From assembly GCF_001535545.1 (NCBI RefSeq), contig NZ_CP014141.1:496001-560000 (forward strand): a DNA stretch of 64,000 bases, in the 5' to 3' direction. The notes below the pieces were generated by a model. It was given only the letters and a program-made list of their open reading frames with translations. It ran no database searches and had not been told where the DNA came from. The translations under genes and the position numbers were made by a program. Positions 22,440-30,334 of this stretch are shown piece after piece; positions within the stretch are counted from its first letter, which is position 1; each line of letters opens with the position of its first letter. The stretch is from Thermus parvatiensis (lineage in GTDB: Bacteria; Deinococcota; Deinococci; Deinococcales; Thermaceae).

Positions 22440-22726
22440 TACTTGAGCCGGGCGATGAGGTCGGCCACGGGAATGGCCTCGAGGGTCATCGTCTTCACGC
22501 TTCCCCTCGAGGCCAGGTGGAGCATGGCCCGGGCCACCGCCAGGGCATCCTCTGCCTCCACGATGTTCACGAAGTCATAGGGCCCCAAAACCGCGTACTG
22601 GGCCACCACCTTGACCCCGAAGTCCCGCTCCAGCTCCTGGTTCACTTCCTTGATGCGCTCGGGGTTTTTCACCAGGGTCTCAGCGCCGTCATCCGTGAGG
22701 GTGCTGAGAACGATAAAGGTGGGCAT
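22439..22726 (-). CDS. GYD-domain protein
   Basis: This 95-residue alpha+beta protein starts PTFIVLSTLTDDGAETLVKN and carries the motif GPYDFVNIVEAED that gives the GYD family its name (often GxYD). Such proteins form ferredoxin-like oligomers of unknown function. An AAAGGAGG precedes the ATG, one of the few genes here with both a full promoter (TTGTCA-17-TATCCT) and a ribosome site. Glyoxalase and rnhA follow with one- and four-base overlaps, so the three form an operon. Confidence 0.8.
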   Translation of the reverse strand: MPTFIVLSTLTDDGAETLVKNPERIKEVNQELERDFGVKVVAQYAVLGPYDFVNIVEAEDALAVARAMLHLASRGSVKTMTLEAIPVADLIARLK

Positions 22727-22746
22727 CTTGGCCTCCTTTCCCCCTT

Positions 22747-22775
22747 AGGATAGCCCAGGAGTTCCAGTTTGACAA
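22747..22775 (-). promoter_or_regulatory. Promoter of the GYD-glyoxalase-rnhA operon
   Basis: On the minus strand TTGTCA (22770-22775), a 17-bp spacer and TATCCT (22747-22752) precede the ATG at 22726 by 20 bases, leaving room for the visible AAAGGAGG. It is one of the best two-part promoters in the window. Confidence 0.7.
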
Positions 22776-22780
22776 TCGAG

Positions 22781-23352
22781 CTAGTCTTCCTGAGGCGTTT
22801 CCAGAGAAATACCGCTATAGACCTCCTCCAAGGAGAGGGTTCCTTGGGGCAGGGCAAGGGTACCTCCCCTTCTGTGAAGACCTGATAGAGGATGCCCGTG
22901 GCCTTTTTCTGATAAAGCTCTATTCGCCTTTCTTGGATATCCGCCAATACATACCCTTGCAAGGAAGGCAGGGAAAGATACCGCCAAAGCTTCTCCCGCC
23001 GGTCTATACCTTCGGTACTTGGGGAAAGGACCTCCACCACCAGGCAGGGAGCTTCCTCGTAGTAGGGGTTTTGGGGCGGGGGAGCACAGACCACCATGAG
23101 ATCCGGGTAGTAGACGGTCCTTTCCCCCACCTTGAGCTTCATATCCGCCACGTAGAGGCGGCATCCCTGCCTACGGGCTAAGGGGCCCAGGAGAAGGGCC
23201 AGGTTGGTGGTTAAAAGGGCGTGAGCCCGGCTGGCCCCGGCCATGGCGTAGGGCAGGCCCTCCACCAGCTCATGCTTGGTTTCGGACCGGGCCTCCCATT
23301 CCAGATACTCTTCCAAGGAAAGGGGTTTCAGGGCCTTGGCGGGTTCGCCCAT
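22781..23352 (-). CDS. Uma2-family (DUF820) endonuclease-like protein, frame broken
   Basis: This protein, about 190 residues after repair, has a restriction-endonuclease-like fold. It shows the Uma2 pattern LSLEEYLEWEARSETKHELVEG, TVYYPDLMVV (catalytic Asp) and APCLVVEVLSPST with the E-x-V core. The C run at 22866-22869 lacks one base; the repaired tail reads TLALPQGTLSLEEVYSGISL. Base composition is visibly less GC-rich than the neighbours, as is common for this expanded, mobile family. Its role is unknown. The ATG overlaps the guaA stop (ATGA). Confidence 0.82.
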
Positions 23353-24863
23353 CACTCCCATTCTATGGTGGCGGGAGGCTTGGAGGTGAGGTCGTAGACC
23401 ACCCGGCCGATCTCCGGCACCCTGCGGGTGATGCGCCGGGCTGCCTCGTCCAGGAAGTCCAGGGGCAGCCTGGCCCAGTCGGCGGTCATGAAGTCCTCGG
23501 TGGTCACGGCCCTTAAGGCCAGAACGTAGCCGTACTTCCGCTCGTCCCCTGCCACGCCTACGCTCCGCACGGGGGTGAGGACCGCCAGGGCCTGGGCCAC
23601 CTGGGAATAAAGCCCCCACTCCCTTAGAAGGCTTATGAAGATATCGTCGGCCCGCCGGAGGATGTCCAGTTTTTCCTCCGTGACCTCCCCCAGGATGCGC
23701 ACCGCCAGGCCCGGCCCCGGGAAAGGGTGGCGCAGGCGGATAGGGTCGGGAAGGCCGAGAAGCAGGGCGAGTTCCCGCACCTCATCCTTGAAGAGAAGGC
23801 GGAAGGGCTCGAGGAGCTCGAACTTCAAATCTTCAGGAATACCGCCCACGTTGTGGTGGCTTTTGATCTTGGCCGCTCCCGGTTCCCCGGCGGACTCGAT
23901 CACGTCGGGGTAGAGGGTCCCCTGGGCGAGGAACCGGAAAGGGCCTGCTTCCCGGGCCACCAGGGAGAAGACCTCCACGAACTCCCGCCCGATGATCCGG
24001 CGCTTTTCCTCGGGATCTTCCACCCCCTTGAGAGCTTTAAGGAAGCGCTCCCTGGCGTCCACCACCCGGAGGTTTACCCCGAGGGCTTTAAGGGCTCCTT
24101 CCACCTCCTCCCGTTCCCCCAGGCGCAGGAGGCCGTGGTCCACGAAGACCGCCAGGTGGTTCACCCGGGCCTTGGCCAAGAGGAGGGCCAGGGTGCTGGA
24201 GTCCACCCCGCCGGAAACCGCCAGGAGCACCCGGTCCTCGCCCACCCTTTCCCGCACTTCCTTAACCAGGCTTTCCAGCACGTGCTCCGGAGTCCAGTCC
24301 CGTTTTACCCCAGCGATCTCCAGGAAGTTTTCCAGGATCTGCATCCCCTTGGGGGTATGGGCCACCTCGGGGTGGAACTGGACGGCGAAGGTCTTTCCGT
24401 CGGGGGCTTCCATGGCCGCCACGGGGTTTTCCTCGGTTTCCGCCACCACCCGCCACCCCGGGGGAAGCTCGGTCACCGCGTCCTGGTGGCTCATCCAGAC
24501 CTGGACCTCCCCCTCCAATCCCCGGAAGAGGGAGCCCTCGTGGCGGGTGAGGAGGGCCTTGCCGTACTCGGCCCTACCGGAGCGCTCCACTCTCCCCCCA
24601 AGCTCCTGGGCGAGGAGCTGCATCCCGTAGCAGATCCCCAGGATGGGAAGCCCCAGGGAGAAAAGCCTGGGGTCGGGGCGGGGGGCATCGGGGTCAAAGA
24701 CGCTATTGGGTCCGCCGGAGAGGATTAGGGCTTGGGGCTTGTGCTTAAGGATTTCCTCCAGGCTCGCCCGCCCCGGCAGGATCAGGGAAAAGACCCGAAG
24801 CTCGCGGAGCCTCCTTGCGATGAGCCGCGTGTACTGGGAGCCGAAATCCAGGACCAGGACCAC
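23352..24863 (-). CDS. guaA: GMP synthase (glutamine-hydrolysing)
   Basis: GMP synthase, 503 residues, aminates XMP to GMP. The N-terminal glutamine amidotransferase has [13 protein letters not shown] with the catalytic Cys and [11 protein letters not shown] with the His. The ATP-pyrophosphatase domain has the [11 protein letters not shown]-loop. The C-terminal dimerisation domain ends [11 protein letters not shown], the universal GuaA terminus. The GTG start has TAGACT (24870-24875 on the minus strand) 6 bases upstream and is probably leaderless. The frame is intact. Confidence 0.96.
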
Positions 24864-24875
24864 GCCAAGAGTCTA

Positions 24876-25487
24876 CTACGCCTCCAGGTGGAGCCTGAGC
24901 TGGTGCAGGAGGTCGGCGGGGCTGCGTACCGGGTACTCCAGGCGCTCCAGGAGGGCCTCGGCGGGCTGGTCCAAAAGGCGCAAGCCCTTGAGCCTGGCCA
25001 GGAGGGCCTCCTTGTCCGCGGGGAAGTCTAGGCCCTTCACCGCCTTGAGGACCAGGACGGCCCAGGGGATGCCCATCATCTCCACAAAGCGCTCCAAGAA
25101 GTAGCCCAGGACCCGGGGTTCCTCCTGCCCTTGGCGGATGGCCCGGTAGGCCGCCTTGGCGAGCCCCCCGGCCACGTGCGTCCTGAGCCTTTCCCCTTCC
25201 TCAAGCTCCTGGATTCGCTTCAGGGCCGCCTCGGGGTCGGCCCGGAGGATCTGGCGCACGGCGGCGCTGGAAAGGCCGAGCTCCTTGGCGATGGCCTCCT
25301 CCCCCTTCATCCCCTCCTGGGCGAGGACCACGGCGTAGGCGGCGGTCATGAGGCTTCCCGCCCAGGTGAGGCGCTTCTTCTCCGCCAGGGCCTTGGGCCC
25401 GCCCACCAGGTCAATCACCTTGAGGAAGACGCGGAGGACGGTGGCCTCGAGGTCCCGCTCCTCCAAGGGCCTAGGGGTTAGCACCAT
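24876..25487 (-). CDS. Helical regulatory-domain protein next to the KaiC-like ATPase
   Basis: This protein has about 203 residues and is mostly alpha-helical. A region near residues 60-90 (EEAIAKELGLSSAAVRQILRADP) reads like a helix-turn-helix. It resembles the 'probable regulatory domain' proteins that in thermophilic archaea accompany KaiC-like ATPases; that comparison is from memory. The start is uncertain. The ATG at 25487 has GGAGGTGA before it. An in-frame ATG at 25502 has TAATAT (25509-25514) exactly 6 bases upstream, giving a leaderless form 5 residues longer. It lies 45 bases downstream of the KaiC-like gene on the same strand. Confidence 0.6.
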   Translation of the reverse strand: MVLTPRPLEERDLEATVLRVFLKVIDLVGGPKALAEKKRLTWAGSLMTAAYAVVLAQEGMKGEEAIAKELGLSSAAVRQILRADPEAALKRIQELEEGERLRTHVAGGLAKAAYRAIRQGQEEPRVLGYFLERFVEMMGIPWAVLVLKAVKGLDFPADKEALLARLKGLRLLDQPAEALLERLEYPVRSPADLLHQLRLHLEA

Positions 25488-25531
25488 ACGCTCACCTCCC
25501 ATAGGCCTATATTAGCATGAAATTTGCCTTC

Positions 25532-26359
25532 CTAATGCTCACCCAAGGGCGGGCCCACTTCTAAAAGCCCCTCGGGCCGGATGTAGAGGAGGTGGGTGCG
25601 GGTGTCGTGCCCACTGAGGCGGCAGCCGTCTATGCGGAGGAGGCGGACCAATTCCCCCAGGCCCACCCGGTAGAGCTTGGCCAAGGCGGGGCTCATCACC
25701 AGGACCTTGGCGAGGACTAAGGTGGCGTCCAGGATGTGGCTCACGGCGTAGCCGCCCGCCGCCTCGGCGGAGAGCTCCTCGTGGCCGGAGCGCTTCTGGC
25801 TCACCATGAGGGCAGTGAGGCCGAAGCGCTTGCTGAAGGCGTAGACCTGGCGCACCACCTGGCGGGCGGCGATCTCCTTGGCCTCGTAGAGGCCCGTGAG
25901 GGAGTCCACCACCAGGTGCCGGGCCCCGCTTTGGAGCCCCTCCTCGAGGGTGGCGAAGAGGGTGGGGAGGTCCTCCCGAAGCACGGCGTGGGTGGCGGCG
26001 TCCGCGATGAGGATCCGTTCCAGCACCCTCTCCTTAAGGCCCATGGCCCGGGCCCGAAGCTTCAGCCCCTGGACCAGGAGGGGGGCCGGGGCCTCGGTGG
26101 TGACGAAGAGCACCCCTTCGCCCCGCTCTGCCTGCTTTAGGGCAAACTGCTCGGCGAGGAGGCTTTTCCCCGTGTCCGACACCCCGGTCACGTGGACGGC
26201 CGCCCCCCGGGGGAAGCCTCCCAGGGGTTTGGGCTTCAGGGTCTTGGGGTCCAGGGTGAAGAAGAGCTCGTCCAGGCCCTTCACCCCCGTGGGCACCCCT
26301 TCCAGGGGCGGGGCCTTGGCGGAAAGCTCCATGGCGCTTTGCAGCCTAGGCCGGTCCAT
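25532..26359 (-). CDS. KaiC-like RecA-superfamily ATPase
   Basis: This 275-residue single-domain ATPase of the KaiC/RadA group opens [14 protein letters not shown], the KaiC-type start. Walker A is GVSDTGKS (residues 59-66), followed by the TTEAP strand. Walker B is [11 protein letters not shown], and the LMVSQKRSG and [10 protein letters not shown] strands follow. It is one KaiC domain, not the cyanobacterial clock double domain. Single KaiC-like proteins are frequent in archaea as signalling ATPases, so transfer is possible. TAGGAG precedes the ATG. The partner protein downstream probably works with it. The divergent neighbour is luxS. Confidence 0.82.
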
Positions 26360-26397
26360 ACTCCTATTTTGCCCCAGGGCTTTGGTGTAATAGGGGC

Positions 26398-26864
26398 ATG
26401 GCCGAGGTGGAGAGCTTCAGCCTGGACCACACCAAGGTAAGGGCTCCCTACGTGCGCCTGGCGGGGAGGAAGACCCTCGCGGGGGCGTGGTGGAGAAGTA
26501 CGACCTGAGGCTCGCCCAACCCAACCGGGAAGCCCTGCCCACGGGGGCCCTGCATACCCTGGAACACCTCCTGGCAGGCTACCTGCGGGACCACCTGGAA
26601 GGGGTTATTGACCTCTCCCCCATGGGCTGCCGCACGGGGTTTTACCTGGTGGTGGAAGGCCCCTTGGGCGAGGAAAAGGTATTGGTGGCCTTTGAGCGGG
26701 CCTTAAGGGACGTTCTCTTGCACGAGGGACCGGTCCCGGGGGCCAGCTTCCGGGAGTGCGGCAACTACCGGGACCACGACCTCCCTGGGGCCAAGGCCTG
26801 GGCGGAGCGGCTCCTGCGCCAAGGGCTTAGGGTGCAGGCCACGGTGCCCCTGGAGGGGGCATGA
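26398..26864 (+). CDS. luxS: S-ribosylhomocysteine lyase LuxS (frame broken)
   Basis: LuxS cleaves S-ribosylhomocysteine to homocysteine and the autoinducer-2 precursor DPD. The metal-binding HTLEHLLA motif and [17 protein letters not shown] are clear, and it starts [20 protein letters not shown]. The G run at 26481-26485 lacks one base; repair reads [15 protein letters not shown] and gives 155 residues. TGTAAT ends 6 bases before the ATG. The next gene, the nucleosidase that makes its substrate, overlaps by four bases, so the activated-methyl-cycle pair is translationally coupled. Confidence 0.94.
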
Positions 26865-28554: not shown

Positions 28555-30334
28555 TTAGGTGGGCTCTTCCCCGGCCAGAGCCTCCTTGAGGGCCTGGGCC
28601 GCCTTTAGGCTCATCCCCGGCAGGCGGGCGAGCTCCTCCAGGGGGGCTTCCTTAAGGGCCCTTAGCCCCCCGTAGCGCTCCAAAAGAAGCCGCCTCCTCT
28701 TCTCCCCGATCCCCGGGATGCCGGAAAGGACCTTTAGGGCCTCCTCGGTGCGCTTCTTCTGGTGGTAACGGAGGCCGTTTTGGTGAGCCTCGTCCCGCAG
28801 GTGGATGAGGAGTCTTAAGGCCGGGTGGGTGAGGGGGAGGCGGAGCTCCCGCCCTTCCGGCGTGATCAGGACCTCCTCCCCCTTGGCGAGGCCCACCAGG
28901 GGGATCTTGAGCCCGGCCCGTTCCAGGGCCCGCTGGGCCGCCCGCACCTGGCCCAGGCCCCCGTCGATGAGGAGGAGGTCGGGAAGGGGCATCTCCCTTA
29001 GGCTTCCCGTGAAGCGCCTGTAGACCCCCTCCTCCATGGCGGCGTAGTCGTCGTTTCCCGCCTTGAGGCGCATCCTGCGGTATTCGGCCTTTTTGGGCCT
29101 TCCCCCTCCAAGACCGCCACGGAGAAGACCCGCGCCTCGCCCTGGAGGTGGCTTACGTCGTAGCCCTCGAGGCGGAAAGGCCTTGCGGAAAGCCCCAAAA
29201 GGTCTTGAAGGGCCTTAAGGCCCGGATGGTCCCCCCGGCGCTCCCGGGCCTTGAGCTCGGTTTCCAGGGCGAGGCGGGCGTTTCTTTCGGCGAGTTCCAA
29301 GAGCCGCGCCTTCTCCCCCCTCTGGGGCACCCTTAGCTCCACCTTGTGCCCGGCGCGGCGCCTGAGGAGTTCACGCAGGCCCTCGAGGTCCTCCAAGGGG
29401 AAGGGGAGGAGGACGAGGGGGGGGAGGGGGGAGGCCTCCAGGTAGTGGTCCCGGAGGAAGGCCCAGAGGATCTCCTCGTCCGTGGCCTCCTCCTTCTCCA
29501 CCACGCGGCTGATGCGGCCGAGGATCCGCCCGGAGCGCACCTGGTAGAGCTGCACCACGGCGAGGGCCCCGGAGCGGGCGAGGCCCAAGAAGTCCAGGTC
29601 CCCAAGCTCCGGGTCAAAGGCCTGCTGGCTCGTGCCGAAGAAGGCCCGTAGGGCCTCTATCTGGTCGCGGATCTCCGCCGCCCGCTCAAACTCTAGCCTT
29701 CGGGCGGCTTCCCGCATCTTCCCCTCCAGCTCCGCCAAAAGCCCGTCCACCTTCCCCTCCAGGACCGCCTCCACCTGGCGCACCACCTCCTGGTAGGCCT
29801 CGGGGTCCGCCTTCCCCACGCAAGGGGCGAGGCACCGCCCCATGCTGTAGTTCAGGCAGGGGTAGCGCCTTTTCTTCATGGGGTAGCCTGAGTTCTTGCG
29901 CAAAGGGAAGTAGCGGTCAATGAGGGTCTTGATGCGCCTTAGGGCCCCCGCCTCGGGAAAGGGCCCATAGTACTTGGCCCCGTCCTCCTCTACCCGGCGC
30001 ACCACGAGGAGGGTGGGGAAGGGCTCTTGGGTAAGCTTGAGGAAGGGGTAGTGCTTGTCGTCCTTGAGGAGGACGTTGTAGGGGGGCGGTGGGCCTTGAT
30101 GAGGTTGGCCTCGAGGAGAAGGGCCTCCACCTCGTCCCGGGTGGCGATGAAGTCCAGGCCCGTGGCCTCCTCGGCGATGCGCCTGGCCTTGCCCTCGGCG
30201 TGGAAGTAGCTCCTCACCCGGGCGCGGAGGTTCTTGGCCTTGCCCACATAAAGCACCTCCTCCCCCCGCTTCCAGAGGTAGACCCCGGGGGCTTCGGGAA
30301 GGGGAGGAAGGTCCTCAAGCCGCACAAGCCCCAT
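28555..30334 (-). CDS. uvrC: UvrABC system protein C (two frame breaks)
   Basis: UvrC makes the dual incisions of nucleotide excision repair. It has about 593 residues after repair. The N-terminal GIY-YIG nuclease shows PGVYLWKRGEEVLYVGKAK. The cysteine-rich YPCLNYSMGRCLAPCVG, the UVR helix LEFERAAEIRDQIEAL, the RNase-H-like nuclease (GYDVSHLQGE, PDLLLIDGG) and the C-terminal helix-hairpin-helix pair (LSGIPGIGEKRRRLLL) follow. The breaks are at 30081-30086 and 29102-29106, one missing base each. It shares the window with an alkyltransferase-like protein, a known feeder of this pathway. Confidence 0.95.

Follow-up and report, generated by a model that had tools for sequence, protein, structure and literature searches.

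The KaiC-family ATPase and the helix-turn-helix protein described here have been inherited together, and in some vent bacteria they appear, from gene order, to form one operon with the gene for reverse gyrase. We tentatively propose that the pair acts as a thermophile-specific, ATP-driven regulatory switch for high-temperature survival, a reading that we consider quite possible, if short of probable. Among the genetic marks of high-temperature life, reverse gyrase is the best known, and to our knowledge the control of its expression or action in bacteria is poorly known. Because the ATPase is found only in reverse-gyrase genomes among the sampled Campylobacterota, lies upstream in the operon there, and because the pair is near-core in Aquificota, the conserved two-gene module represents a concrete and testable candidate for such control. 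Some Thermus species are genetically tractable, and the pair could be deleted or added and assayed in them.

That both families exist and tend to be neighbors was already known. New are their co-occurrence in trans, the operon with reverse gyrase together with the nesting of the ATPase-bearing genomes within those encoding this enzyme, and the exchange of the cassette within Thermus; no earlier report of these was found in the literature searched, which was covered in part. With the same partial coverage, a search on the accessions TIGR03878 and TIGR03879 yielded nothing relevant, and reverse gyrase was mentioned together with KaiC only in a paper on the heat shock of Pyrococcus furiosus.

Layout of the cassette in Thermus parvatiensis

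The window, i.e. the whole stretch of 64,000 nucleotides that was analysed, contains the following features.

24876..25487, minus strand: helical partner with helix-turn-helix, 203 aa, with N-domain TIGR03879 and a DUF2795/MTH865-like C-domain (profile scores, start comparison, AlphaFold2)
25242..25301, minus strand: helix-turn-helix predicted at residues 63-82 of the partner (AlphaFold2 helices, orthologue matches)
25488..25531, minus strand: gap of 44 nt between ATPase and partner, with the ribosome-binding site of the partner and no conserved promoter
25532..26359, minus strand: KaiC-family ATPase of one domain, 275 aa, TIGR03878 (thermo_KaiC_2) (NCBIfam and Pfam scores, invariant residues)
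26360..26397, no strand: divergent ATPase/luxS spacer, 38 bp between the start codons, with the inverted repeat CCTATT...AATAGG
24864..26397, no strand: cassette; 17 of 27 Thermus genomes lack it and have luxS directly beside guaA (at about 32 bp in genome G061)

On the minus strand the ATPase gene is followed by the gap, the partner gene and guaA (23352-24863); luxS and pfs point the opposite way beyond the spacer. Both open reading frames, the distance between them and the head-to-head arrangement with luxS agree with the preliminary description, the gap being 44 nt with a partner start at 25487. The list of open reading frames places this start at 25502, giving a longer protein. The ATG at 25487 is the likely start, since the upstream ATG is missing in T. 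arciformis and 25487 is immediately preceded by a GGAGGTGAG ribosome site.

A promoter of its own had been surmised for the partner. A search for sigma-70-type promoters in the gap found none, and T. composti and the T. brockianus group have not retained its TAATAT, so that this suggestion was not upheld. Likewise, a special link to luxS-pfs is not borne out: luxS stands beside guaA without the pair in 17 of the 27 Thermus genomes, and the association is positional only. The arms of the spacer repeat co-vary in the few sequences at hand, reading CCCATT/AATGGG in T. composti and CTCATT/AATGAG in the T. brockianus group. The repeat CCTATT/AATAGG is possibly an operator, a pair of similar leader sequences or a product of chance. 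Downstream of it, luxS (26398-26864) looks frame-split near its start, as about 29 positions at the N-terminus of the model have no counterpart in the open reading frame; uvrC (28555-30334) is likewise broken, into three open reading frames. Together with a completeness of 87%, these splits point to frameshift errors in the assembly.

The ATPase belongs to the TIGR03878 family

The assignment to the single-domain KaiC type was confirmed by a match to Pfam KaiC (1.5e-42) and by a score of 340.1 bits against the NCBIfam model TIGR03878 (cut-off 232.2), which is covered from position 1 to 258 of 259. All other KaiC, RadB, ArlH and RadA/Sms models remained far under their cut-offs. TIGR03878 is presumably the 'AF_0795 family', which according to its curators is confined to thermophiles, and the named matches come mainly from lineages of hot habitats. 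The Thermus ATPase resembles the family in its full-length match, its single KaiC domain and its thermophilic host; no difference was found. The possibility that it nests within bacterial RadA/Sms, with which it has the RecA-superfamily core in common, was rejected: it reaches 23.3 bits against TIGR00416 (cut-off 403), and its 275 residues leave no second domain.

An alignment with 81 relatives revealed 59 invariant positions. The Walker A and B motifs are intact, and D62, T63, G64 and K65 of Walker A, E89, D152 and S153 of Walker B, as well as R242, D244, G245, R247, H251 and D252 are invariant. In addition, a SQKRSGHEE motif (residues 187-195) after Walker B is strictly conserved among the 81 relatives, with G192 near-invariant. 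We take E89 to correspond to the catalytic glutamate of KaiC, the roles of the residues being carried over by analogy from that protein; the predicted catalytic set is complete.

The partner is probably a DNA-binding protein

The partner scores 91 bits against the NCBIfam model TIGR03879 (near_KaiC_dom; cut-off 65.1) over residues 26-119 of its 203 aa. The entry is described as a 'probable regulatory domain', and its name refers to the nearness of KaiC genes. The pair is known but uncharacterised, already catalogued in NCBIfam without assigned function. The earlier designation as 'undescribed' holds in that neither family has been given a function, but not for the families themselves, both of which are named there, the second for its proximity to KaiC. 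The Thermus partner conforms to TIGR03879 in matching the model and adjoining a KaiC gene, and differs in having a second, C-terminal domain. Among 44 orthologues, the latter matches DUF2795 in 13 cases and MTH865 in 14. Short orthologues of 125-147 aa consist of the N-domain alone, e.g. in a Pseudothermotoga MAG (L116) and in Thermomicrobium roseum, where the gene of the hypothetical protein TRD_RS10440 shares 4 nt with its KaiC gene.

The AlphaFold2 model comprises 12 helices (pLDDT 86.6 for the whole protein and 88.7 for the N-domain); the N-domain is confidently all-helical and the second domain mostly helical. The helices at residues 63-70 and 74-82 form the predicted helix-turn-helix. 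With the partner of the window alone, the Pfam matches to helix-turn-helix families are weak; among the orthologues, HTH_23 is matched in 28/44 and sigma-70 region 4 (Sigma70_r4) in 25/44, so that the helix-turn-helix noted previously is conserved. Judged from these profiles, the partner probably binds DNA.

A PDB-wide fold search with the whole partner and with its N-domain returned no significant match, and only weak helix-turn-helix likeness to DeoR, KorA, DnaA domain IV and ParB. A role as a toxin, raised by a weak YdaS match, was rejected, as the match is confined to the helix-turn-helix. Some Aquificota genomes (G173-G179) encode an extra, weaker TIGR03879 protein (62-95 bits) beside the main one, which may be a paralogue serving another KaiC-type ATPase.

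Co-inheritance of ATPase and partner

The two genes, each present in one copy in the T. parvatiensis genome, co-occur in most of the heat-loving lineages examined. Of 27 Thermus genomes, 6 possess both, with the cassette between guaA and luxS, and none possesses just one. Among 136 Aquificota genomes, 106 contain both genes, 8 only the ATPase, 10 only the partner and 12 neither (Fisher p 8.5e-7, a guide only, as it ignores phylogeny); genome incompleteness accounts for some of the singles. The pair is adjacent in 42 of 103 scorable Aquificota pairs and provably far apart on the same contig in 12. The functional coupling proposed earlier thus gains support from co-presence and co-absence in all 27 Thermus genomes and from co-occurrence in Aquificota even when the genes are unlinked. 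That the combination is uncommon in bacteria is not supported, the ATPase being present in 114 of the 136 Aquificota.

Beyond these groups, the partner adjoins the ATPase in 40 of 80 related loci from many phyla, and in 18 of the 22 genomes without a nearby copy it is encoded elsewhere. The ATPase and partner trees, in which MAG names may reflect misbinning, show a distance correlation of 0.58, a value reached in none of 2000 permutations. Both proteins have the same nearest neighbor in 24 of 40 cases, and several groupings across phyla recur in both trees.

The genes surrounding the pair differ between lineages. In WOR-3/Hydrothermota-type loci (L085, L111, L114, L117), the neighborhood of the pair or of the ATPase includes an SDH-family serine proteinase of the Clp fold, together with a 650-aa protein of no assigned family.

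Association with reverse gyrase

Among 347 Campylobacterota genomes, 14 contain the ATPase and 17 reverse gyrase, and all 14 fall within the 17 (p 2e-22, again a guide only that ignores phylogeny). In 9 of the 14, the ATPase gene precedes that of reverse gyrase by 676-770 bp; in the other five the genes are unlinked. In five of the linked loci, which were read closely, the partner fills this interval, and the end of its frame possibly overlaps the reverse gyrase frame by 4 nt. One of these phylum members (G546) encodes two TIGR03878 ATPases, one beside reverse gyrase and the other about 830 kb away.

Across 45 ATPase-bearing genomes, reverse gyrase exceeds the cut-off in 27 and is missing in 18, including most of the pair-bearing Thermus. 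The enzyme is strongly associated with the ATPase, yet is no requirement, and its falling below the cut-off in these 18 genomes argues that it is not an obligate target. Within Thermus, reverse gyrase was found only in T. composti and in the T. parvatiensis genome of the window, both of which carry the pair. In the latter it lies on a 143-kb contig (C2; locus L188, 5971-9311) in two frames of 387 and 816 aa, split at a G run by a frameshift that is either genuine or an error of the assembly.

A putative regulatory switch and its alternatives

In the proposed switch, the ATPase would assemble into a KaiC-like ring or another oligomer, and its ATP state, or phosphotransfer, would control the partner. 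The latter would bind DNA and set how strongly genes required near the top of the growth range are expressed; these would include its own operon and, in genomes where it is linked, reverse gyrase. We infer that the ATPase governs DNA binding by the partner and that the targets help the cell to survive close to its upper temperature limit; in Thermus the pair would act as an accessory regulator of heat survival, in some species only. The co-presence of the two genes, the reverse gyrase operon and nesting, the presence of the pair in both Thermus genomes with reverse gyrase, the helix-turn-helix of the orthologues and the congruent trees speak for the switch, whereas four Thermaceae genomes of one genus, which contain the ATPase without the partner, speak against it. 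A scan for dyads and k-mers shared upstream of the ATPase, partner and reverse gyrase genes gave no clear motif; dyads were in excess upstream of the partner, where some may be terminators.

Related arrangements have been reported elsewhere. In P. furiosus, PF1931, containing a KaiC domain, and PF1932, a predicted regulator, are strongly heat-induced and have Phr heat-shock motifs (PMC10746257); the two are adjacent by number and, likened to our pair by description only, also place a KaiC-domain gene beside a predicted regulator. The KaiC-like CirA of Haloferax has transcriptional effects in common with the regulator CsmR, and for archaeal CirA/CsmR and ArlH it has been proposed that a KaiC-family ATPase acts on a regulator of transcription (PMC13286277). 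The Thermus ATPase differs from these archaeal signaling ATPases in belonging to another subfamily (31 bits against the ArlH model, cut-off 215). Moreover, the reverse gyrase of Nautilia rises more than 100-fold upon heating (PMC2628731), which, like the heat induction of PF1931 and PF1932, counts in favor of the switch.

The main rival is a direct role in DNA maintenance, which we consider rather unlikely. Here the ATPase would be a RecA-fold accessory ATPase, similar to archaeal RadA paralogues, that works beside reverse gyrase, and the partner would recruit it, at high temperature, to DNA that is damaged, nicked or unwound, without any gene regulation. The operon with a DNA enzyme fits this explanation, as do the RecA/KaiC superfamily membership with weak matches to RadB models and the conserved SQKRSGHEE motif, the region after Walker B in RecA-type proteins often contacting DNA. 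It accords less well with a partner helix-turn-helix of the transcription type (HTH_23, sigma-70 region 4) and with the varying neighborhoods, in which reverse gyrase is the sole recurrent repair-type gene.

Alternatively, the pair could be a general regulator of metabolic or energy state that is merely common in thermophiles, linked to reverse gyrase by shared transfer only. The mobility of the cassette in Thermus, evident from mosaic exchange, and the neighbors differing between phyla agree with this reading. We nevertheless regard it as improbable, since all 14 ATPase-bearing Campylobacterota possess reverse gyrase and the five unlinked cases are not easily explained by a single joint transfer. 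A circadian-type clock or timer, suggested by the KaiC family domain, is hardly credible for a protein with one ATPase domain that scores 48 bits (cut-off 408) and 21 bits (cut-off 546) against the clock-KaiC models.

Returning to the regulatory switch, a bolder version appears doubtful to us: a horizontally spread KaiC-type ATPase/helix-turn-helix switch of bacteria and archaea, controlling or assisting reverse gyrase along with further DNA-integrity genes at the upper temperature limit. If true, the single hallmark gene of hyperthermophily would have a companion with a regulatory role.

Mobility of the cassette

The DNA of the pair is 99% identical to that of T. arciformis. In contrast, the adjoining guaA is 98% identical to that of a Thermus lacking the pair and 87% to that of T. 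arciformis. The cassette was probably exchanged recently between Thermus species. Nearby, a mosaic block (22500-24250), 98-100% identical to the pair-less Thermus G061, appears to result from recent recombination; within it, the segment 22750-23250, which by eye seemingly encodes an Uma2-like protein, is without a close counterpart in several further Thermus genomes.

The archaeal origin that had been put forward is unsupported among the sampled relatives: Thermaceae form one supported clade and archaea nest among bacteria, in a set of 80 loci whose only euryarchaeal AF_0795-type sequence is from a Syntrophoarchaeum MAG. A phage origin was rejected, as viral contigs contained no relative. Carriage on a plasmid was observed once, on the megaplasmid of Thermomicrobium roseum.
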